DNA of 64,000 nucleotides from Variovorax paradoxus (GTDB lineage Bacteria > Pseudomonadota > Gammaproteobacteria > Burkholderiales > Burkholderiaceae_C): contig NZ_CP123990.1 of assembly GCF_029919115.1 (NCBI RefSeq), positions 5,110,501-5,174,500 on the forward strand, written 5' to 3'. This document shows, in pieces, positions 13,063-24,863 of the stretch; position 1 is the stretch's first letter; every line of letters begins with the position of its first letter. A model generated the notes under the pieces. It ran no database searches. It saw only the letters and a program-made list of their open reading frames with translations, and was not told where the DNA came from. The translations under genes were made by a program, and so were the position numbers.

Positions 13063-13974
13063 ATGACTTTCACTCCCAAGACGCTGCTTCGCGTTTCCGT
13101 TGCCGTTGCCCTGGTCACGATCCTGCTCAAGGGAATGGCCGGCTATGTGACGAACTCGATGGGCCTGATTTCAGACGCCATGGAGTCGTTCGTCAATCTT
13201 GCGAGCGCAATGTTCGCCCTGGCAATGGTGACCGTGGCGGCGCGCCCTGCCGACGAGGACCATCCCTACGGCCACCACAAGGCCGAATACTTTTCATCGG
13301 GCTTCGAAGGCATTCTCATCGTCGCAGCGGCGGGCGCCATTCTCTGGGTTTCGGTGCAGCGGCTGCTTTCTCCCCAGCCGCTCGAGCAACTGGGCTGGGG
13401 GCTGGGGCTTTCGGTGCTCAGCTCGGGCTTCAATGCGGCCTTGGCCTTTGCGCTGTTTCGCGCGGCTCACACGCACCGGTCTATCGCGCTGGAGGCCGAC
13501 GCACGGCATTTGGTGACCGACGTCTGGACATCGGCTGCAGTCCTCATAGGCATCGTGGCCGTGCATTTCAGCGGATGGCTCTGGCTCGATCCGCTGCTGG
13601 CCATCGGCGTGGCGCTCAACATCGTGCGCGAAGGTGTAAAGCTCGTGTGGCGCTCGTCGCAAGGGTTGATGGACGAAGCGCTGGAGCCCGAGACCATCGC
13701 CACGCTGCGCACCACGCTCGATCAGTTTGCCGCGCGCCTGCCTGAGGGCGCGCGGTTGCGCTTCGACGACATGGTCACCCGGCGTGCGGGCCAGCGCCGG
13801 TTTGCCGACCTGCACATGCACGTGCCTGGCGAGTGGACACTGCAGCATGCGGCGGCCATGCGTGATGAACTGGAGCAGGCACTGATGGACGCCGTGCCCG
13901 GCCTGCGCGTGACCATCCAGCTGCTGCCGCTGGGCATGGAAGCGCGCGCTACGCAAATGGAGGAAGAGGGATGA
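13063..13974 (+). CDS. Cation diffusion facilitator family transporter
   Basis: A 303-residue proton-coupled divalent metal exporter of the inner membrane with about six helices (residues 10-210) and a C-terminal cytoplasmic metal-binding fold. The second half of the transport site is canonical (H149-x3-D153 in HLVTDVWTS). The first half reads SDAMESFVN, with Glu41 and Asn45 at the positions that are usually His/Asp and Asp. The substrate is therefore hard to predict. Its stop overlaps dtd by four bases (ATGA). Confidence 0.9.
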
Positions 13975-14414
13975 AAGCGGTAGTTCAGCGTACGGCCGGC
14001 GCGCGCGTCGATATTGCCGGGCAGACAGTGGGCGCCATCGAGGCCGGCCTGCTCGTGCTGCTTTGTGCAGAGCGCGGCGACATGGATGCGCTGGCCGACC
14101 GCATGCTCGCCAAGATATTGAAGCTGCGCATTTTTTCGGATGACGCGGGCAAGATGAACCGCAGCCTGCAGGACGTCGGCGGCGGCCTGCTCGTGGTGAG
14201 CCAATTCACGCTTGCGGCTGACGTGAGCGGCGGCAATCGTCCCAGCTTCACGCAGGCGGCGGCACCTGACGAGGGGCGGAGGCTCTACGAATATTTTGTG
14301 GCGCAGGCCCGCGCTGCGCACCCCGTCGTTGCAACGGGCGAATTTGGCGCCGACATGCAGGTGCACCTGATCAACGACGGACCGGTCACCATTCCACTGC
14401 AGATGGTGGCCTAG
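13971..14414 (+). CDS. dtd: D-aminoacyl-tRNA deacylase
   Basis: Removes D-amino acids (and glycine from tRNA-Ala) mischarged onto tRNA. The 147-residue protein starts [20 protein letters not shown] and contains the family motifs [21 protein letters not shown] and the C-terminal [12 protein letters not shown], matching the SQFTL and NxGPVT active-site signatures (here NDGPVT). It overlaps the upstream transporter gene. Confidence 0.96.
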
Positions 14415-15485: not shown

Positions 15486-16433
15486 TCAATGCGACCCCGC
15501 GCGCTTGCGCTGGCCGTCGTAGGCATCGACGATCTTGGCGACCAGCGGGTGCCGCACCACGTCCGAACTGGTGAAGTGCGTGATCGCAATGCCGCTCACG
15601 CGCCGCAACACGCGCTCGGCGTCGATCAGTCCGCTCAGCTGCTGCTTGGGCAGGTCGATCTGGCTCACGTCGCCCGTGACCACCGCCTTGGCGCCGAAGC
15701 CAATGCGCGTAAGAAACATCTTCATCTGCTCGACCGTGGTGTTCTGCGCTTCATCCAGGATGACGAAGGCATTGTTCAGCGTGCGCCCGCGCATGAAGGC
15801 CAATGGCGCAATTTCGAGTGCGTTGCGTTCGAAAGCCTTCTGCACCTTTTCATAGCCCATCAGGTCGTACAGCGCGTCGTACAGCGGACGCAGGTAAGGG
15901 TCGACCTTCTGCGTCAGGTCGCCCGGCAAGAAGCCGAGCCGCTCGCCGGCTTCCACCGCCGGTCGCGTGAGCACGATGCGCTGCACAGCCGCGCGCTCCA
16001 GCGCATCGACCGCGCAGGCCACCGCCAGGTAGGTCTTGCCGGTGCCGGCCGGGCCGATGCCGAAGGTGATGTCGTGCTTGGCGATGTTGTCCAGGTACAG
16101 CGCCTGGGTGGGCGTGCGCGCGCGCAGGTCGGCGCGGCGCGTGACGAGCATGGCCGCGTCCTCGTCGCCGTCGATCATGGAGCCGTCGCCCGCCAGCGTG
16201 AGCTGCACCACGGCCGGGTCGATCGGGCGCTGGGCAATTTCGTACAGCGCCTGCAGCACGTCCATCGCCCGTTGCGCGGAAGCCTTGGGGCCGTCGACCT
16301 TGAACTGCTCGTGGCGGTGCGCGATCTTCACGCCCAAGGCCTCTTCGATGCGCCGCAGGTGCGCGTCCAGCGGCCCGCACAGGTGGCCGAGGCGCGAGTT
16401 GTTCGGTGGGGCAAAAGTGTGTCGCAGAATCAC
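15486..16433 (-). CDS. PhoH-like ATPase (YbeZ)
   Basis: A 315-residue cytosolic ATPase of the PhoH family. The Walker A loop is [18 protein letters not shown], and the Walker B-like [16 protein letters not shown] follows. An N-terminal KH-like region precedes the ATPase fold. In E. coli, YbeZ associates with YbeY in rRNA processing, consistent with the adjacent ybeY here. It is the first gene of the three-gene minus-strand unit; the intergenic repeat upstream also lies in front of ruvA. Confidence 0.93.
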
Positions 16434-16602: not shown

Positions 16603-17175
16603 ATGATAGGCAAACTCACCGGCATCCTGGCCGAGCGCAACCCACCGCAGGTGGTGGTGGACTGCAACGGCGTCGGTTACGAGGTCGATGTGCCGATGAG
16701 CACGTTCTACAACCTGCCCGGCACCGGAGAGCGCGTTTCGCTGCTCACGCACTTCGTGGTGCGCGAGGACGCGCAGATTCTCTACGGTTTCGGCACCGCC
16801 GAGGAGCGTGCGGCTTTTCGGCAACTCATCAAGATCACCGGCGTGGGGCCGCGCACGGCGCTCGGCCTGCTTTCGGGCATGAGCGTGGGCGAGCTGTCGC
16901 AGGCCATCACCACGCAGGAGCTCGGCCGGCTCGTCAAGATTCCGGGCATCGGCAAGAAAACCGCCGAGCGGCTGCTGCTGGAACTCAAGGGCAAGCTGGG
17001 CGCCGACATCGGCCTGCCCGCGCATGCGGCCTCCGACGCGCAGGCCGACATCCTTCAGGCGCTCATTGCGCTGGGCTACAGCGACAAGGAAGCCGCGCTG
17101 GCGCTGAAGGCACTGCCAAAGGATGCGACAGTGAGCGAGGGCATCAAGCTGGCGCTGAAGGCGTTGGCGAAGTAG
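16603..17175 (+). CDS. ruvA: Holliday junction branch migration protein RuvA
   Basis: Binds Holliday junctions and loads the RuvB motor. The 190-residue protein begins [16 protein letters not shown], then an OB fold, two helix-hairpin-helix motifs ([13 protein letters not shown] and [17 protein letters not shown]), and a C-terminal RuvB-binding domain ([11 protein letters not shown]). ruvB is not adjacent but 6.6 kb away, beyond an oppositely oriented seven-gene lipid operon. Confidence 0.97.
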
Positions 17176-17191: not shown

Positions 17192-17818
17192 TCAGGGGTG
17201 GATCTTCTCGCCCTTGGCGAGCATTTCAACGAATTGCGCAATACGCCGCGCCCGGGTCTCGGGCTTCTTTGCGCCCTGCGTGCGGAACAGCACCGAATAG
17301 CGGTTGCGTGAATCGAGCTTGGCAAAGAAGGCTGCGGCCTTGGGATTCGCATCGAGGGCCGTCTGCAGGTCGGACGGCACGGTGGCGACGCTCTGGGCGT
17401 CGTAGGCCGCATCCCAGCGGCCGTCGGCCCGGGCGCGGTCGACCTCGGCCAGGCCGGCAGGCTGCATGCGGCCTTCCCCGATCAGCTTCAGTGCCTTGTC
17501 GCGGTTGATCTTCGACCAGGTGCTGCGCGGCGTACGCGGGGTGAAGCGCTGCAGAAAGTGCGTGTCGTCTTCCGCCTTGCGCTGCCCGTCGATCCAGCCG
17601 TAGCACAGCGCAACTTCGAGGGCCTCGGCGTGGGTGGCCGATGCAATGCCGCTGTCCTTCCTTGCGATTCGCAGCCACACGCCGGCTGCGGCGGCATGGT
17701 GGCGCTTGAGCCACCGCTCCCATGACGCGGCGGTGGTGCATTCGACGGGCGTGTCGTGCGGAACGCGCTCGGCCGCCATCGCTTTCTTTGCCCTGGTACT
17801 TGCGCGTGCCGTGCTCAC
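17192..17818 (-). CDS. YdeI/OmpD-associated (bacteriocin-resistance type) family protein
   Basis: A 208-residue cytosolic protein. It has the family core ASWERWLKRHHAAAAGVWLR, the ALCYGWIDGQRK segment and the FTPRTPRSTWSKIN motif, plus a C-terminal YdeI extension (FFAKLDSRNRYSVLFR). The biochemical role of this family is unknown. The GTG at 17818 overlaps the stop of the cytidylyltransferase gene (GTGA), as do other joins in this operon; an ATG at 17779 is the alternative. It is the last gene of the lipid operon and may simply be a co-transcribed passenger. Confidence 0.82.
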   Translation of the reverse strand: MSTARASTRAKKAMAAERVPHDTPVECTTAASWERWLKRHHAAAAGVWLRIARKDSGIASATHAEALEVALCYGWIDGQRKAEDDTHFLQRFTPRTPRSTWSKINRDKALKLIGEGRMQPAGLAEVDRARADGRWDAAYDAQSVATVPSDLQTALDANPKAAAFFAKLDSRNRYSVLFRTQGAKKPETRARRIAQFVEMLAKGEKIHP

Positions 17819-18768
17819 GGCACCCACCAGTAGCGCAAGGCGTGAAAGTAGATCGGCGCCGCGAAGATCACCGAGTCGAGCCGGTCGAGCATGCCGCCGT
17901 GGCCTTCGATCATCGAGCCCCAGTCTTTCACGCCCCGGTCGCGCTTGATGGCCGACATCACGAGCCCGCCGAAGAAGCCCATGAGGCAGATGGTGAGCGC
18001 CATCAGCGCGGCTTGCCACGGATTGAAGGGCGTCGCCCAATAGAGCGCCGCACCCAGCGCGGTGGCGCTGGCGACCCCGCCGACCAGGCCTTCCCAGGTC
18101 TTGGAGGGCGAAAGTTCGGGCGCCACCTTGCGCTTGCCGAAGAGCTTGCCCCAGACGTACTGCAGCACGTCGCTGCCCTGCACCACGATCACCAGAAAAG
18201 CGATCAGCAGCAGGTTGCGTCCCTCAAAACCGGGAATCTGCAGCGTGAGCAGCGCGGGCACGTGGCTGATGCAGAACACGCAGATCATCAGGCCCCACTG
18301 GATCTTGGAGGTGCGCTCCAGAAAGCGCTGCGTGTCGCCGCCCACGGCCGCAAGAATCGGCAGCACCAGAAAGGCGTAGACCGGAATGAAGATCGAATAG
18401 AGCCCGTACCACTCGATCCACACCAAAAAGTATTGCACCGGCAGCCCGATGTAGAACGCCGCCGCAATTGCATGATGGTCGCCGCGCCGCGTGTAGGCCA
18501 GGCTGATGAACTCGCGCAGCGCATAGAACGAGATCAGATAGAACAGCGCGATCACGCCGCCCTTGCCGAAGGCAAAGGCAAGGCCGATCACCGCCACCAT
18601 CACCCACCACGCATTGACGCGGGCGTTGAGGTTGTCGATGACGGAATTGGGCTGGCCCTGCGCCACGCGCCACTTGAGCGTGGCGCCAATGGCGGAGGCA
18701 AGTATCAGCACGCCGGCCACGCCTCCGAACAGTTGCAGCGTGGTCTGGGTGGAGGGCGAGATGTTCAT
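17815..18768 (-). CDS. ynbB: Phosphatidate cytidylyltransferase (YnbB-like)
   Basis: Makes CDP-diacylglycerol from phosphatidic acid and CTP in the inner membrane. The 317-residue protein has about eight membrane helices and the family signature near the C-terminus, SPSKTWEGLVGG, followed by SAIKRDRGVKDWG and a final HGGMLDRLDSVIFAAP. The gene sits in an operon with the acyltransferase, head-group transferase and phosphatase genes rather than with frr-uppS-dxr, where the housekeeping cdsA usually lies. That supports a YnbB-type paralogue. The ATG overlaps the upstream stop (ATGA). Confidence 0.9.
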   Translation of the reverse strand: MNISPSTQTTLQLFGGVAGVLILASAIGATLKWRVAQGQPNSVIDNLNARVNAWWVMVAVIGLAFAFGKGGVIALFYLISFYALREFISLAYTRRGDHHAIAAAFYIGLPVQYFLVWIEWYGLYSIFIPVYAFLVLPILAAVGGDTQRFLERTSKIQWGLMICVFCISHVPALLTLQIPGFEGRNLLLIAFLVIVVQGSDVLQYVWGKLFGKRKVAPELSPSKTWEGLVGGVASATALGAALYWATPFNPWQAALMALTICLMGFFGGLVMSAIKRDRGVKDWGSMIEGHGGMLDRLDSVIFAAPIYFHALRYWWVP

Positions 18769-19499
18769 GGCGTGGTTGCAGCTGCTTTTTCTTGTTCGGG
18801 CACGCGGTCGTATTCGGGGCGCAGGTCGAGCATGGCGGCGCGCGCGCGGGCGAGAAAGCTGGTCTTGTCTTCGCCGTCGGCCAGGCGGATCGGCGCGCCG
18901 AAGCGAACCGTGCAGGCCAATGGAATGGGCACCAGCGTGCCCTTGGGCAACACGCGCTTCAGGTTTTCGATCCACACAGGTACCAGCCGCACTTCGGGGC
19001 AGGCGCGTGCCAGGTGATAGAGCCCGCTCTTGAGCGGCAGCAGGATCTCGTCGCCGGTGTTGCGCGTGCCCTCGGGAAACATGATGAGCGAGTCCCCACC
19101 TTCCAGCGCTGCTTTCATCTGATCGACAGGGTTGCCGCCCTGGCCCGAGCCGTCGCGGCGGATCATCAGTGCGTTGAACACATCGGCGCCAATGAACCGG
19201 CGCACCTTGGAGGCCATCCAGTAGTCCTGCCCCGCCACCGGCCGCGTCAGCGCGCGAAGATCGGGCGGCAGCGTGGCCCACAGCAGCACGAAGTCGCCGT
19301 GGCTCGTGTGGTTGGCGAAATACAGCGTCTGCTCGGCCTTGGGCGTGGTGCCGCTCCAGATGGCGCGCACGCCCGTCAAGAGCCCGGCTGCGCCGATGAT
19401 CAGCTTGCCCGCAACCACGGCGAGTGCGCGGCGAAATAGCGTGCTCTCGGGCCGGGAGTCTTTTTCTTTGTTGTTGCTGTTGTTGTCTTCTTCGGTCAC
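18765..19499 (-). CDS. Lysophospholipid acyltransferase, PlsC type
   Basis: Probably acylates lysophosphatidic acid to phosphatidic acid at the inner membrane. The 244-residue protein has the acyltransferase motifs NHTSHGDF (HX4D) and FPEGTRN, with an N-terminal hydrophobic segment (VVAGKLIIGAAGLLTGV). The GTG at 19499 overlaps the stop of the preceding small gene (GTGA); a longer start at 19547 is less likely. E. coli ynbABCD has no such acyltransferase gene. Here it would supply the substrate for the cytidylyltransferase encoded next. Confidence 0.88.
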   Translation of the reverse strand: MTEEDNNSNNKEKDSRPESTLFRRALAVVAGKLIIGAAGLLTGVRAIWSGTTPKAEQTLYFANHTSHGDFVLLWATLPPDLRALTRPVAGQDYWMASKVRRFIGADVFNALMIRRDGSGQGGNPVDQMKAALEGGDSLIMFPEGTRNTGDEILLPLKSGLYHLARACPEVRLVPVWIENLKRVLPKGTLVPIPLACTVRFGAPIRLADGEDKTSFLARARAAMLDLRPEYDRVPEQEKAAATTP

Positions 19500-19936
19500 G
19501 ACAGGTCCTGTGTCATCAAGGCAAGGAGAAACATCGCGCTCTGGCAAGCAACCACGATGGCATGCCGCTGCATGAGCTGCCGCGTGCCTTGCACGCGGTC
19601 ATCGAGCGGCCGCAGGGCCATGGGCGGTTGTGCGTTGCGCAGGCCGAGCCGGTCGAGTGCGGAGTCGAGCGCGTCGAGCGATGCGATGGTGCCGCGCGCC
19701 AGATTGGCGAACAACGCCTCGTCGAACCGCAGCCTGAATGCGAAATAGCGTTCGAGCGCTCCAAGCACCACCACCGCGCCAAGGCTCATGGCTGCCGTGG
19801 TCGAGAGGGAGCGCACCGTGAGGGCGAGCACCAGCGCCGCAATGCACATGAGTGCGAAACCCCACACCGCCAGCACCGTCACCGAGCGCAGCAATCCGGC
19901 AAGGGCGGCGCAGGTGGCGCGATCGCTTTCAGTCAT
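19496..19936 (-). CDS. Small membrane protein of unknown function
   Basis: A 146-residue protein not matched to a known family. It has a hydrophobic stretch at about residues 10-35 (SVTVLAVWGFALMCIAALVL), another at about 38-52 (SLSTTAAMSLGAVVVLGALE), and a third at the C-terminus (IVVACQSAMFLLALM). Between them is a soluble helical part with charged residues (FRLRFDEALFANLARG). It overlaps the PAP2/phosphatase gene by eight bases upstream and the acyltransferase gene downstream, so it is clearly part of the operon. Confidence 0.7.
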   Translation of the reverse strand: MTESDRATCAALAGLLRSVTVLAVWGFALMCIAALVLALTVRSLSTTAAMSLGAVVVLGALERYFAFRLRFDEALFANLARGTIASLDALDSALDRLGLRNAQPPMALRPLDDRVQGTRQLMQRHAIVVACQSAMFLLALMTQDLS

Positions 19937-21287
19937 GGGGCGGCACTCCGGGAACAGTGGTGCCCAGCGGCTCGAGCGAAACGCGCCACGCGGGGCGAAG
20001 AACGATCTGCGGACGCGCCATGCGCACCGTGTCTTCCGCCTGCGCCAGCCCGCCTGACGCGCCGTAGCGCCCCAGCCATGCGATGGTTGCCGCGGCGCTG
20101 CGCGAGAAGCCCAGCGCGCAGCAGACCCACACGGCTGCGCCTCCGGCATCGAGGCGCTGCCCTTCGATCACCGCGGCGGCGCGTTGCAGCCGCACGGTCG
20201 GTGGCACGGTCAGGTCGAGTATCGGCACGCAGCGCGCGTGCGGAACGCCGGCTGGCGTCTGCAGTTCGGCGCACAGGCTGACGAGCCGGGGCTGCCCGGC
20301 AGCAATCCACTCGGCCTTTGTCGGCAGGCGTCCGAGGCGCAGCCCCGGTACTACTTCGACCGAGGCGGGCAGCTTGCGCGTCCAGAGCCACGCATTGAGG
20401 GCGGCGCCCAGGCGATAGGGCGCAAACAGCCAACGCGCGGCCCAGCTCATGTGCCCGCCGCCGTTCATCTGGAAGCCACGGGCGCCGAAGCCGATGTAGT
20501 TGAGCGCCACCAAGGCCAGCGAAACCGCAGGCCAGGCGAGCCACAGCAATAGGCCGCCGCCATACAGGCCGGCGGCAAGAAACAACGCCGCGCCGGCGGC
20601 ATAGAAGCTCGCGAGCTTGCGGCGCTGCGCATCGCGCGTGCATTGCCAGGCGCGCGGCATCGACACCGTGCGCTCCAGCGGCCACAGCCATACGCAGAAA
20701 AGGCCCAGCAGTGCGCCCGTGGGAATGTCGATGAAGTGGTGCTGCCAGGTGGTGAGCACCGATGCGCAGATGGCGAATGCCCACACATGCAGCACCCATC
20801 TTGTCCACGCTGCGCGCAGGAACTGCCGGTACCAGTCCCACAGGATCACTGCCAGTGCAATGTGCAGCGACGGCGCCTGGTTGTAGGGCTGGTCGAAGCC
20901 GCGCAGCGCATTGAACAGGAACGCGGGGGCACCCTGGACCTCCGGTTGCCCAAAGCTGAAATGCAGCGGCCAGAGCACGAAGCAGGTGCACGCGATGAGC
21001 GTGGCGCTCACCAGCCGCAGCGCATGCCGGTCGAGCGTGTGCTTGCTGCGCGCGAGAAAAAGCGAGAGTGCGTAGAAGACGTTGATCGTCCAGTACGGAA
21101 AGATCGTCCAGGCCCAGAACGGCACCTGCCGCTCCCACTCGAAAGCCATCGAGGGCACCTGCGCGCGCGTGGTGGCCCACCAATTGGCAAGGCCGTAGGT
21201 CGTATAGAACAGCGGCCCCAGGAGCACCAGCCATGCCGCGGCCCGCTTCCACGGGCGTTGTGCCAGCCAGTGCTTCATTTTGCGCAA
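19929..21287 (-). CDS. ynbD: PAP2 / dual-specificity phosphatase fusion (YnbD-like)
   Basis: A 452-residue two-part protein. The N-terminal half is a multi-helix membrane PAP2-type lipid phosphatase or phosphotransferase, with APSLHIALAV and HHFIDIPTGALLG carrying the two active-site histidines. The C-terminal 130 residues form a cytosolic dual-specificity/tyrosine-phosphatase fold, with the CX5R loop at Cys390-Arg396 (CALGFSRS). The same fusion is known in E. coli YnbD, whose substrate is not established. It follows the hydrolase/methyltransferase gene by ten bases. Whether it removes a phosphate from a lipid, a protein or a sugar is open. Confidence 0.9.
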   Translation of the reverse strand: MRKMKHWLAQRPWKRAAAWLVLLGPLFYTTYGLANWWATTRAQVPSMAFEWERQVPFWAWTIFPYWTINVFYALSLFLARSKHTLDRHALRLVSATLIACTCFVLWPLHFSFGQPEVQGAPAFLFNALRGFDQPYNQAPSLHIALAVILWDWYRQFLRAAWTRWVLHVWAFAICASVLTTWQHHFIDIPTGALLGLFCVWLWPLERTVSMPRAWQCTRDAQRRKLASFYAAGAALFLAAGLYGGGLLLWLAWPAVSLALVALNYIGFGARGFQMNGGGHMSWAARWLFAPYRLGAALNAWLWTRKLPASVEVVPGLRLGRLPTKAEWIAAGQPRLVSLCAELQTPAGVPHARCVPILDLTVPPTVRLQRAAAVIEGQRLDAGGAAVWVCCALGFSRSAAATIAWLGRYGASGGLAQAEDTVRMARPQIVLRPAWRVSLEPLGTTVPGVPPHD

Positions 21288-21297
21288 GGCCCCGAGC

Positions 21298-23109
21298 TCA
21301 TGCCATCCTCACTGCGAGCGAGACGGTGAAGATGCCCCACTCGTCGATGCGCTGGTCGATCTTGCGGAAGCCCGCTTCTTCGACCAGCTGGTCCATCTCG
21401 GCCTGCGTGCGGCGGCGCATGACCCAGGCCTCACCCTGGCGGTGGCTGGTGAGCGCGCGCGCAATCATCTCGAGCTGCGGATGCCAGGGCTGGCCGGTGT
21501 AGACCAGGTAGCCGCGGTCTTCCACCGCGTCGCCCACACCCGCGAGAGAACGCCGCACCATGTCGTTGTCGGGAAAGAGTTCGTACAGGCCCGACACCAC
21601 GGCCAGCGTGGGGCGCGGCGTTACGGTCGCCAGGCTGATGCGGTCGAAGGCGTCGGCCTGAACGAACTGCGCGACGTCTTCCAGGCCTTTTTCGGCGATG
21701 AGCGCGCGGCCGTCGCGCACGTTGATGTCGCTGTAGTCGCGCAGCAGGATCGAGCTGGCCTTCACAGGGCTTGCAGCCACCGCGTCGAGCACATAGCGGC
21801 CATGGCCCGCTGCGATGTCCATCACGCGCACCTCGCGATGCATTTCGGCCAGCCGCTCCATCGCAATGCGGATCAACTCCTCGACATGGATCTTGCGCTG
21901 CCGGATGCCGCGCCAGCCGATCGAGTTCAGGTAGGTCTTGTCGATGGAGCGGCCGAGCGGCCCCTTGCCTTCCGGATGATTGCGGTAGACGTAGTCGAGC
22001 GTGCTGCCCGAATCGAAGCCGGTGTCGTGCCCCAGCTTCACGCCGCGCGAAAGAGTGCCGCCAAAGCGCAGCCCGGCGCGCGTCAGTCCCCAGTAGGCGC
22101 CGCGCGGAGACAGCGTCGCCAATGGCTCGGCCAGCGCGCGCGACTCGTCGGCCGTGTTGCCGCTCAGGTGTGCGGCGCGCAGGTCGACCGGTGCCGGCGG
22201 CTCCTCGAACAGCTGCAGGACGAACTCGCGGATGGCCTGCACCGCCGGTGCGCGGTCCTTCTCGCCCAGCGTGTCGTGAAAGAAGCCCGGCAGTTCCAGC
22301 TTGGTCTTGATGGCACTGCCCAGCCGCTCGAAGAACTGGTGCTGCGGCTTGTGGTGCACCACCCAGTCGGCGCCCGAGATCAGCAGCTGAACCGGCAGCG
22401 TGATGGCGTTGGCATCGGCCACCACGCGGTCGGCGGCTTCGTAGAGGCCCAGCAGGATGTTGACGGCGATGGGCCGCGAGATCAGCGGATCGCTCTCGTA
22501 GCTCGCAATGCGCTCCCGGTCGTGCGTGAGGAACTTCGCCTTCACATAGCTGTTGACGAAGAACAGGCCGCGCAGCTTGTGCATCAGGCCCAGCCCGGCG
22601 CGCGCAAAAGGCACGTAGAGCTTGACCTTGAAGGCCGGCGAGGCCAGCGTGAGCCCGCGCACCTTGGGCGCGTAGTCGTGCGCCCAGGTGGAGACCAGCA
22701 CGGCCCCCACGCTCTGCGCAACAACGTGGATGTCCTGCTCGGCCACGCCATGCGCGCTGCCGATGTGCTGGACGAAGGTCTGCACGTCGCGCACCGACGT
22801 GGCAAAGCTCGGGCTGTAGCCGCGCTGGCCCGGCGAGCGGCCGTGGCCGCGCGCGTCCCAGGCAAAAAAGTCGAAGTCGGGCAGGTTGAGTTCGTCGACC
22901 AGGTGCGCCATGCGCGCGCCGTGCTCGTGCCCGCGGTGAAACAGCACGATGGCGCCGCGGCGCGCTGCGCCCGTGGCCGGCCAATGCCGGTAGAAGAGCG
23001 ATTCGCCGTCGTGCGTGCGGAACTGGCGCTCTTGCGCCGTGCGTTGGTGGGTGTTGGTATCGGTATCGGTCATTGAATCCAGATCGCTGTTCTTTTGTTT
23101 GTTATGCAT
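21298..23109 (-). CDS. ynbC: Alpha/beta hydrolase-methyltransferase fusion (YnbC-like)
   Basis: A 603-residue fusion. Residues 30-310 form a monoacylglycerol-lipase-like alpha/beta hydrolase, with FFAWDARGHGRS and the nucleophile Ser133 in VVAQSVGAVL (Ala where the first Gly of GxSxG usually is). Residues 345-603 form a class I SAM methyltransferase with motif I in VMDIAAGHGRYVLDAV. This pairing is characteristic of YnbC and suggests lysophospholipase-like plus methyl-transfer steps on one lipid, but no substrate is known. The ATG at 23109 is four bases past the ynbA-like stop; MTDTD at 23073 is an alternative start. Confidence 0.9.
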   Translation of the reverse strand: MHNKQKNSDLDSMTDTDTNTHQRTAQERQFRTHDGESLFYRHWPATGAARRGAIVLFHRGHEHGARMAHLVDELNLPDFDFFAWDARGHGRSPGQRGYSPSFATSVRDVQTFVQHIGSAHGVAEQDIHVVAQSVGAVLVSTWAHDYAPKVRGLTLASPAFKVKLYVPFARAGLGLMHKLRGLFFVNSYVKAKFLTHDRERIASYESDPLISRPIAVNILLGLYEAADRVVADANAITLPVQLLISGADWVVHHKPQHQFFERLGSAIKTKLELPGFFHDTLGEKDRAPAVQAIREFVLQLFEEPPAPVDLRAAHLSGNTADESRALAEPLATLSPRGAYWGLTRAGLRFGGTLSRGVKLGHDTGFDSGSTLDYVYRNHPEGKGPLGRSIDKTYLNSIGWRGIRQRKIHVEELIRIAMERLAEMHREVRVMDIAAGHGRYVLDAVAASPVKASSILLRDYSDINVRDGRALIAEKGLEDVAQFVQADAFDRISLATVTPRPTLAVVSGLYELFPDNDMVRRSLAGVGDAVEDRGYLVYTGQPWHPQLEMIARALTSHRQGEAWVMRRRTQAEMDQLVEEAGFRKIDQRIDEWGIFTVSLAVRMA

Positions 23110-23113
23110 GGGT

Positions 23114-23716
23114 TCATGCGGCTTCGGCCAGCGCGCGCCGCACGCGGTTGGCCACTGTCCAGGCGACCAGCACTGCGATAAGCGGCATCAGCCAGGCGGT
23201 CCAGCCCGGCAGGGGCCAGCCCAGCGCCACATAAAGGCCGAGCGCCCCGAACACGAAGGCGCGGTCGCTCTTGCCGAGCGGGCCGTCGTAGCGGCGGGAG
23301 GCGCCCACCGTGGGGCCAAGTGCGCCGGCAAACTCGCTCAGTCCGGCGAGCATGATCACGGCGCCGACCCAGAACGGGCTGAACGGCTGAACCAGCGCAA
23401 ACGGCAGGTAGAGCGCAGCATCGGAGACCACGTCGGTCAGTTCGTTGAGGAAAGCGCCGAGCTTGCTCTGCTGCCCGTGCTCGCGCGCCAGCATGCCGTC
23501 GATGGCGTTGAAAGCCATGCGCACGAACATCCAGGCCGGTATGAGCGCAAAGGCCGCGAGCGACGGCGCCGCAAAGAAAAGCCAGAGCCCGATGGCCACC
23601 GAAACCACGCACGCGGCCAGCGTGACCTGGTTGGCGGTGATGCCCATGGCGTGCAGCCGGCCGACGAGCGGCCGCAGCAGCGCCTGGAACCGAGGCTTCA
23701 GTTCGTAGATCGACAC
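23114..23716 (-). CDS. ynbA: CDP-alcohol phosphatidyltransferase-like protein (YnbA-like)
   Basis: A 200-residue membrane protein of the CDP-alcohol phosphotransferase family, first gene of the lipid operon. The family motif DxxDGxxARx8Gx3Dx3D is present but reads N70-x2-D73-G74-x2-A77-R78-x8-G87-x3-N91-x3-D95. Two of the four metal-binding or catalytic aspartates are therefore asparagine. A conserved [10 protein letters not shown] follows. The GTG at 23716 ([10 protein letters not shown]) is preferred because GAGGGG lies upstream; the longer frame to 23782 would cross the ruvB promoter region. Whether it is a true transferase with altered chemistry is open. Confidence 0.88.
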
Positions 23717-23798
23717 CCTTGGCTTCCCCTCGTTTGTTATATGGCCGGAGCATTCTGCCAGTGTGGCAGGCACTAAACTCAAGCCGAAGACCCCTCAA

Positions 23799-24863
23799 AT
23801 GACCATTCAGACCGACGACTTCGCGCCCGCTCCTCCTCGCGTGGTGTCCGCCGCCCCCGCGTCGCCCCAGGAAGAGGCGATAGAGCGGGCGCTGCGCCCC
23901 AAGCTGCTCGACGAATACGTCGGCCAAGCCAAGGTGCGCGAGCAGCTCGAAATCTTCATTGGCGCGGCGCGCAAGCGCAAGGAGGCGCTCGACCACGTGC
24001 TGCTGTTCGGCCCCCCCGGCCTCGGCAAGACCACGCTGTCGCACATCATTGCGGCCGAACTGGGCGTGAACCTGCGCCAGACCTCCGGCCCGGTGCTCGA
24101 GAAGCCCAAGGACCTTGCCGCGCTGTTGACCAATCTCGAGCCGAACGACGTGCTCTTCATCGACGAGATCCACCGCCTGAGCCCGGTGGTCGAGGAAATC
24201 CTCTACCCCGCGCTGGAGGACTACCAGATCGACATCATGATCGGCGAAGGCCCCGCGGCGCGCAGCATCAAGCTCGACCTGCAGCCCTTCACGCTGGTGG
24301 GCGCCACCACGCGTGCCGGCATGCTCACCAACCCATTGCGCGACCGCTTCGGCATCGTCGCGCGGCTGGAGTTCTACACGCCCGAGGAGCTGGCGCTCAT
24401 CGTGCGGCGCAGCGCCGGGCTTCTCAAGGTCGAAACGGACGAAGCCGGCGGCTTCGAGATTGCGCGCCGTTCACGCGGTACGCCCCGCATTGCCAACCGC
24501 CTGCTGCGGCGCGTGCGCGACTACGCCGAGGTAAAGGGCAACGGCCGCATCACCGAAGAGATTGCGCACAAGGCCCTCGCCATGCTCGACGTCGATCCGC
24601 AGGGCTTCGACCTGATGGACCGCAAGCTGCTCGAGGCTGTGATCCACCGTTTCGACGGCGGCCCGGTGGGCCTTGACAACGTGGCGGCCAGCATCGGCGA
24701 GGAGCGGGACACCATCGAGGACGTGATCGAGCCCTACCTCATTCAACAGGGCTACCTCCAGCGCACTCCGCGCGGACGCATCGCCACGCTGGCGGCCTAC
24801 CGCCACCTGGGCGTGACGCCGCCTTCGAGCCGCTCGGACGGACAAGACCTTTTCGGAATCTGA
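23799..24863 (+). CDS. ruvB: Holliday junction helicase RuvB
   Basis: The hexameric AAA+ motor of branch migration. The 354-residue protein has Walker A ([15 protein letters not shown]), Walker B ([11 protein letters not shown]), sensor 1 in [10 protein letters not shown], and a C-terminal winged helix ([17 protein letters not shown]). The ATG at 23799 starts MTIQTDDF; an in-frame extension to 23763 runs into the divergent promoter region. It is divergent from the ynbA-like gene and separated from ruvA by the lipid operon. Confidence 0.97.

Follow-up and report, generated by a model that had tools for sequence, protein, structure and literature searches.

A conserved Ynb-type operon of Variovorax paradoxus encodes a CDP-alcohol phosphotransferase homologue with asparagine at two metal-ligand positions

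The closest described relative of the system reported here is the ynbABCD operon of Escherichia coli K-12 (b1408-b1411). No study establishing the product of a ynbABCD-type operon was found in the openly licensed literature searched, as the first-pass annotation of the present DNA had also stated. YnbB biochemistry is known from E. coli alone. YnbB is a paralogue of CdsA and is reported to make CDP-diacylglycerol (CDP-DAG) in vitro (PMC7018664). Overproduction of YnbB was reported to raise MPIase, and upon depletion of CdsA it restored MPIase and not phospholipids (PMC6362211, PMC7018664). The ynbB gene also emerged in a transposon-directed insertion-site sequencing (TraDIS) screen around phosphoglyceride-linked enterobacterial common antigen and is described there as not needed for synthesis of this antigen (PMC8609368). 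An insertion in ynbC of strain HMS174(DE3) led to polyphosphate accumulation, which the authors ascribed to cell stress, whereas a ynbC deletion in the Keio background had no reported polyphosphate effect (PMC2435150), and a persistence study lists ynbC among its changed genes (PMC13313352). Here, a Ynb-type operon is described from a 64,000-nt stretch of the Variovorax paradoxus genome (NZ_CP123990.1, positions 5,110,501 to 5,174,500; hereafter the window, to which coordinates refer unless a locus is named). The operon is real and conserved and, as far as found in the same literature, uncharacterised. Its more surprising element is the family of its transferase, where asparagine takes the place of two canonical aspartates out of the four in the CDP-alcohol phosphotransferase motif, a feature that the first-pass annotation had not noted.

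The genome is a single contig of 5.81 Mb, and seven densely spaced genes lie on the minus strand between plus-strand genes that we take from their translations to be ruvA (16603-17175) and ruvB (approximately 23799-24863). Gene A (23114-23719) encodes a YnbA-like CDP-alcohol phosphotransferase homologue of 201 residues that matches PF01066 (CDP-OH_P_transf) with 39.8 bits, above the cut-off of 22. It is followed by C (21298-23109), a YnbC-like fusion of 603 residues that joins an alpha/beta hydrolase (Hydrolase_4, 230 bits) to a methyltransferase (PF12147, Methyltransf_20, 509 bits), and by D (19929-21278), a YnbD-like fusion of 449 residues composed of a PAP2_3 membrane domain (28.6 bits, cut-off 27) and a dual-specificity phosphatase domain (DSPc, 25.4 bits, under its cut-off of 33.5). 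The remaining genes are X (19496-19936), encoding a small helical and probably membrane-located protein of 146 residues; P (18765-19499), a PlsC-type acyltransferase of 244 residues with NHTSHGD and FPEGTR motifs (Acyltransferase, 59 bits); B (17815-18768), a YnbB-type CDP-DAG synthase of 317 residues with a complete CdsA signature (CTP_transf_1, 240 bits); and Y (17192-17818), an OmdA/YdeI-like protein of 208 residues (OmdA, 82 bits). Identity to the E. coli K-12 proteins amounts to 45% for YnbA, 39% over most of the length for YnbB, 58% for YnbC and 38% for YnbD, so that orthologues of all four stand side by side, on one strand and closely packed as in E. coli. The seven frames, the domain assignments of their parts and a Ynb-type set that includes an acyltransferase and a CDP-DAG synthase of its own are thus as first described. 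The last five genes are indeed joined by overlaps (D/X 8 nt; X/P, P/B and B/Y 4 nt each) and A ends 4 nt ahead of C. The statement that all gaps are ten bases or less depends on the start of D: it holds with TTG at 21287 (452 residues, C-D gap of 10 nt) and fails with ATG at 21278, which leaves 19 nt.

The CDP-alcohol phosphotransferase motif, D-x2-D-G-x2-A-R-x8-G-x3-D-x3-D, contains four aspartates and is not present in A, which instead reads N-x2-D-G-x2-A-R-x8-G-x3-N-x3-D (N71, D74, N92, D96) and has asparagine at the metal-ligand positions Asp1 and Asp3. This N-D-N-D arrangement was recovered by pattern in 80 of 81 A sequences, the single miss being a locus in which only part of A was captured (L018), and was seen in 22 of 22 A proteins (E. 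coli included) and in all 38 rows of the A alignment. A differs from the other three PF01066 proteins of this genome, which are D-D-D-D; the first-pass annotation had cautioned that the proteins might prove closer to housekeeping enzymes of phospholipid synthesis. By profile, the best structure match of A is PgsA1 of Mycobacterium tuberculosis (6h53, E 1e-10), and the profile alignment places the asparagine pair on D68 and D89 (Asp1 and Asp3) and the aspartate pair on D71 and D93. In PgsA1, the four aspartates hold both metals, and R155 and R195 bind an ion that is thought to mark the acceptor phosphate (PMC6506517). These arginines pair with R153 and R192 of A (by eye in the HMMER alignment), both of which are invariant in the 38 rows, and A likewise possesses the phosphate-pocket arginines of inositol-phosphate-type transferases such as PgsA1 and archaetidylinositol phosphate synthase. 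It differs from those enzymes in the asparagine pair and, in the Ynb branch, in the residue after Asp4. The corresponding PgsA1 R94 is described as conserved among enzymes using inositol phosphate and as needed with inositol phosphate (PMC6506517); in Ynb-branch A proteins it is replaced by Val, Ile or Met, and the arginine set of phosphatidylinositol phosphate and archaetidylinositol phosphate synthases is therefore only partly present. The best NCBIfam match of A is of the archaetidylinositol phosphate synthase type, and its 79.1 bits fall short of the equivalog cut-off of 180. No paper on an asparagine variant of the motif was found in the openly licensed literature. As the loss of the two ligands is invariant across alpha-, beta- and gammaproteobacteria and Asp2, Asp4 and the phosphate pocket are retained, the active site of A reads as changed rather than decayed.

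A wider search with A was carried out in 299 evenly drawn Pseudomonadota genomes (181 genera), after which the loci were read; weaker A matches were read in part, and more N-D-N-D branches may exist among them. Besides the 22 genomes that carry C, five genomes (L170-L174) contain A, P and B, with C, D and X all absent from the stretch that was read, and 19 genomes carry a distant branch with the motif N-x2-D-G-x-V-A-x-E ... N-[ED]-x-P-D-R. Intact N-D-N-D genes therefore number 22 + 5 + 19 = 46, in 45 of the 299 genomes, with one genome (G043) carrying one gene of each branch; A for the genomes of L145, L146 and L154 was taken from their other loci L098, L097 and L173. Using B and P profiles built from these operons, a YnbB-type B was found within the stretch read at 42 of the 46 genes (19/22, 5/5 and 18/19, respectively). 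B and P are both near at 24 of 27 genes of the Ynb branch and at 15 of 19 genes of the distant branch with only 1.5 kb flanks, rising to 16 of 19 when a wider stretch of G020 (L186) is used. A full B or P adjoins none of nine D-D-D-D relatives (L188-L196), although these controls are few and their stretch lengths differ. They comprise six further relatives down the A ranking and the three paralogues of this genome, and the four aspartates were read by eye in five of the nine; L190 holds a 28-bit B fragment at the stretch edge and L191 a 13-bit P match. Because B (and P) adjoin N-D-N-D proteins even in loci that lack C, D and X, this arrangement suggests that CDP-DAG is their common substrate or ligand. 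A further YnbB-type B adjoining an acyltransferase was observed elsewhere in the V. paradoxus genome (L197 4893-6789, at approximately 4.767 Mb) beside a frame that is presumably ruvC; going by these presumed names, both B-P sets of this genome adjoin ruv genes.

Of the 3831 relatives reported for one distant-branch protein in a large protein set, 119 of the best 120 show the N-D-N-D pattern, and all 119 retain the arginine after Asp4. Several distant-branch rows (P0121-P0240) carry the Joint Genome Institute name phosphatidylglycerophosphate synthase despite the absence of two of the four motif aspartates; no support for this name was found and it is likely a misannotation. In a tree of 44 proteins, one branch separates the N-type rows from the rest (support 95/92, 94% of bootstrap trees), albeit with long-branch warnings, and the N-type side includes one row with alanine at Asp1 (L176). 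The latter is a diverged A-type protein of G233 (L176 8743-9333) with asparagine at Asp3 and no P or B within approximately 8 kb. In G110 (L156/L175), A is interrupted by an in-frame stop and a partial B match lies alongside, which appears to be a decaying set.

Conservation of the operon was followed in two samples. A C-based scan of species genomes gave at least 578 relatives, the best 80 of which were retained as named loci and are biased toward close kin, and the 299 genomes were searched with PF12147 for C. All six of A, C, D, X, P and B are present in 72 of the 80 named loci. The remaining eight are short contigs or truncated by a contig end; one of them (L068) shows the gene order B-P-C-D, and no position could be assigned to its A. 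In the second sample, C occurs in 22 of 299 genomes (11 of 181 genera), and A-C-D-X-P-B is contiguous in 16 of the 21 C-bearing genomes besides the window, so the joint conservation that had been proposed as a check is observed in both samples. Deviating arrangements include P-B divergent from and adjoining A-C-D-X (L126), a divergent A with C-D-X where neither P nor B is near (L122, L123), A-C only (L127), and A-C-P-B with the D-X pair approximately 41 kb off (L128, L180), while the E. coli locus has the order A-B-C-D and lacks P and X. These tallies of gene content identify the six-gene form as the usual one and E. coli ynbABCD looks like a reduced form, which reverses the earlier description of the present locus as an extended version of ynbABCD. 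The proposed seven-gene operon has to be narrowed accordingly: Y is found in 25 of the 80 named loci, every one from Variovorax, and is therefore a Variovorax-only passenger outside the conserved set. The recurring core is A, P and B, which also occurs without C, D and X, and to which C and the D-X pair seem to have been added, within a gene set that spans alpha-, beta- and gammaproteobacteria. Against 10 Variovorax loci, the median ratio of nonsynonymous to synonymous substitution rates is 0.12-0.34 across the six genes A to B (0.12 for A, highest for X), and all six look to be under purifying selection. Together with the recurrence of A-C-D-X-P-B in other genomes, these values argue that the gene set is not a product of chance. 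Several Pseudomonas-type loci (L170 8890-12335; L112, L084, L085) contain an extra acyltransferase directly upstream of A, which in L170 adjoins frames that we take to be gmhB and glyS.

Residues expected of active enzymes are conserved in the partners of A. The signature S-x2-K-R-x4-K-D...GHGG-x2-D-R-x-D of CDP-DAG synthases was found in 90 of 91 B sequences, with L068 as the miss, and P shows the H-x4-D (74/74) and FPEG[TS]R (73/74) motifs of PlsC-type acyltransferases. In C, the hydrolase Ser-Asp-His set is present in 101 of 101 sequences and the S-adenosylmethionine motif in 81 of 81. The PAP2 motifs P136-S137-x-H139 and H180-x3-D184 of D are invariant in 48 rows; the first PAP2 motif, K-x6-R-P, was not seen by eye in this 48-row alignment, and PAP2_3 members may lack it. 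The C-x5-R motif of the phosphatase domain is invariant in the same rows (48/48) and was recovered by pattern in 74 of 80 reads of D, and the modelled domain matches dual-specificity phosphatases in fold, which identifies it as one of them. What distinguishes D from PTPMT1 and other dual-specificity phosphatases is the fusion to a PAP2_3 membrane domain. Since PTPMT1 and the others match D equally well, the fold does not point to a particular substrate.

Neither Pfam nor NCBIfam yielded a match to the small protein X at E 0.001 when it was searched as a 185-residue frame that includes 39 residues before the likely start. Its predicted model (predicted local distance difference test score 95.7) contains three long helices and one short helix and returned no informative match in a structure comparison, and D72, D91 and R114 are invariant in 51 rows. 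A profile of X matched 22 of the 299 genomes, namely 21 of the 22 with C and a borderline partial match in G026 (E 6e-4); X is missing solely from the C genome that has just A and C. The association of X and C (Fisher p 5e-30 by genome, 1e-14 by genus) serves as a guide only, as related genomes are not independent, and it represents an upper view of the link because C-linked loci supplied the training set of the profile and a divergent X without C could escape it.

Upstream of A, the intergenic region toward ruvB (23720-23798, minus strand) contains a putative promoter with TTGAGT ... CAGAAT-like boxes, identified by eye, and the block GGCAGAATGC upstream of A is mostly retained in many of the compared Variovorax loci. 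Further frames neighbour the operon region at 13971-14414 and 15486-16433, which from their translations are presumably a D-Tyr-tRNA deacylase and a PhoH-like ATPase, respectively.

We favour, with a probability of roughly 0.55, the reading that the operon encodes an active, dedicated inner-membrane pathway for one special phospholipid, in which the transferase A works with an altered active site. A dedicated pathway is supported by the conserved catalytic residues of B, C, P and D and by the tie of the N-D-N-D protein to B. What is observed is which genes recur, how far they and their motifs are conserved, and that A travels with B and P; beyond this, we infer the activity of A and, apart from the CDP-DAG synthesis reported for the E. 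coli orthologue of B, the following reactions and their order. P would acylate a lysophosphatidate-like acceptor, B would convert the resulting phosphatidate to CDP-DAG, and A would move the phosphatidyl group onto a phosphorylated alcohol in an active site with asparagine at Asp1 and Asp3. The dual-specificity domain of D may then strip the terminal phosphate, and/or its PAP2 domain may move or hydrolyse the head group, with X as a possible membrane partner of D, and C would methylate the product and trim or swap an acyl chain. Given the phosphate-binding arginines of A and the phosphatase of D, the intermediate may be a phosphatidyl-alcohol phosphate, which would be dephosphorylated afterwards. 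A self-contained path from lysophosphatidate, as originally proposed, is plausible; for the suggested phosphoprotein-regulated lipid, nothing was found in support. Several observations weigh against this pathway. No lipid is known for any operon member, and an E. coli ynbB knockout is reported to grow normally (PMC6362211). In the phosphatidylserine synthase of Methanocaldococcus jannaschii, replacement of the aspartates by Ser or Asn lowered or abolished activity, and the D62N variant (Asp3) was described as not rescued by Mg (PMC8633023). The equivalent of PgsA1 R94 is lost in the Ynb branch, though retained in the distant branch, and the pattern search missed C-x5-R in six of the 80 D reads. 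Nor is A invariably linked to B and P, as neither is near in three of the 22 C-bearing genomes and the second P-B pair of this genome (L197) has no A near. A broader proposal, to which we assign slightly less than an even chance, is that N-D-N-D proteins form a widespread unrecognised class of CDP-alcohol phosphotransferases whose metal centre is reduced or different, each member having its own CDP-DAG synthase and acyltransferase and jointly with them making an undescribed phospholipid, of which Variovorax, Pseudomonas and E. coli would represent a branch decorated with methyltransferase and phosphatase.

The same residues could alternatively mean that A is a catalytically dead transferase fold whose role is to bind CDP-DAG and to direct or regulate B and P, in an operon that supplies or channels CDP-DAG while C and D remodel or repair phospholipids. 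Two metal ligands are missing in every intact member read, the M. jannaschii D62N enzyme was reported to be inactive (PMC8633023), and a CDP-DAG synthase near 42 of 46 intact genes is what would be expected of a partner subunit. Nevertheless, Asp2, Asp4, the G-x2-A frame and both phosphate-pocket arginines are invariant in both branches and a scaffold need not keep them, which makes a dead A unlikely. We consider it somewhat less probable still that no new lipid is made and that the operon is a stress-time turnover and repair set rebuilding ordinary phospholipids, in which C would deacylate, D dephosphorylate, P re-acylate, B re-activate and A carry out the transfer. Each part does have turnover-type relatives, and the polyphosphate accumulation of the ynbC insertion strain was ascribed to stress; but the Keio-background deletion is reported without this effect (PMC2435150), and the distinctness of the A family from the three D-D-D-D paralogues of the genome argues for a different reaction. 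An MPIase-like pyrophosphate glycolipid, for which B would form sugar-PP-DAG, a reaction reported for E. coli YnbB, with A, C and D modifying or recycling the product, fits the effects of YnbB on MPIase (PMC6362211, PMC7018664) but is improbable, given that ynbB is described as dispensable and its loss as leaving MPIase unchanged (PMC6362211), that none of the loci inspected by eye showed a recognisable neighbouring gene for sugar nucleotides or a glycosyltransferase, and that the operon is found far beyond enterobacteria.

The comparison places ynbABCD as a reduced form of a gene set of alpha-, beta- and gammaproteobacteria with the core A, P and B and the add-ons C and D-X, and it provides asparagine at two metal-ligand positions as a sharp molecular hallmark of the transferase family. 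If the dedicated pathway with an altered transferase site is true, the family would be a natural exception to the metal-centre rule of the CDP-alcohol phosphotransferase superfamily, and these bacteria would contain an undescribed phospholipid.

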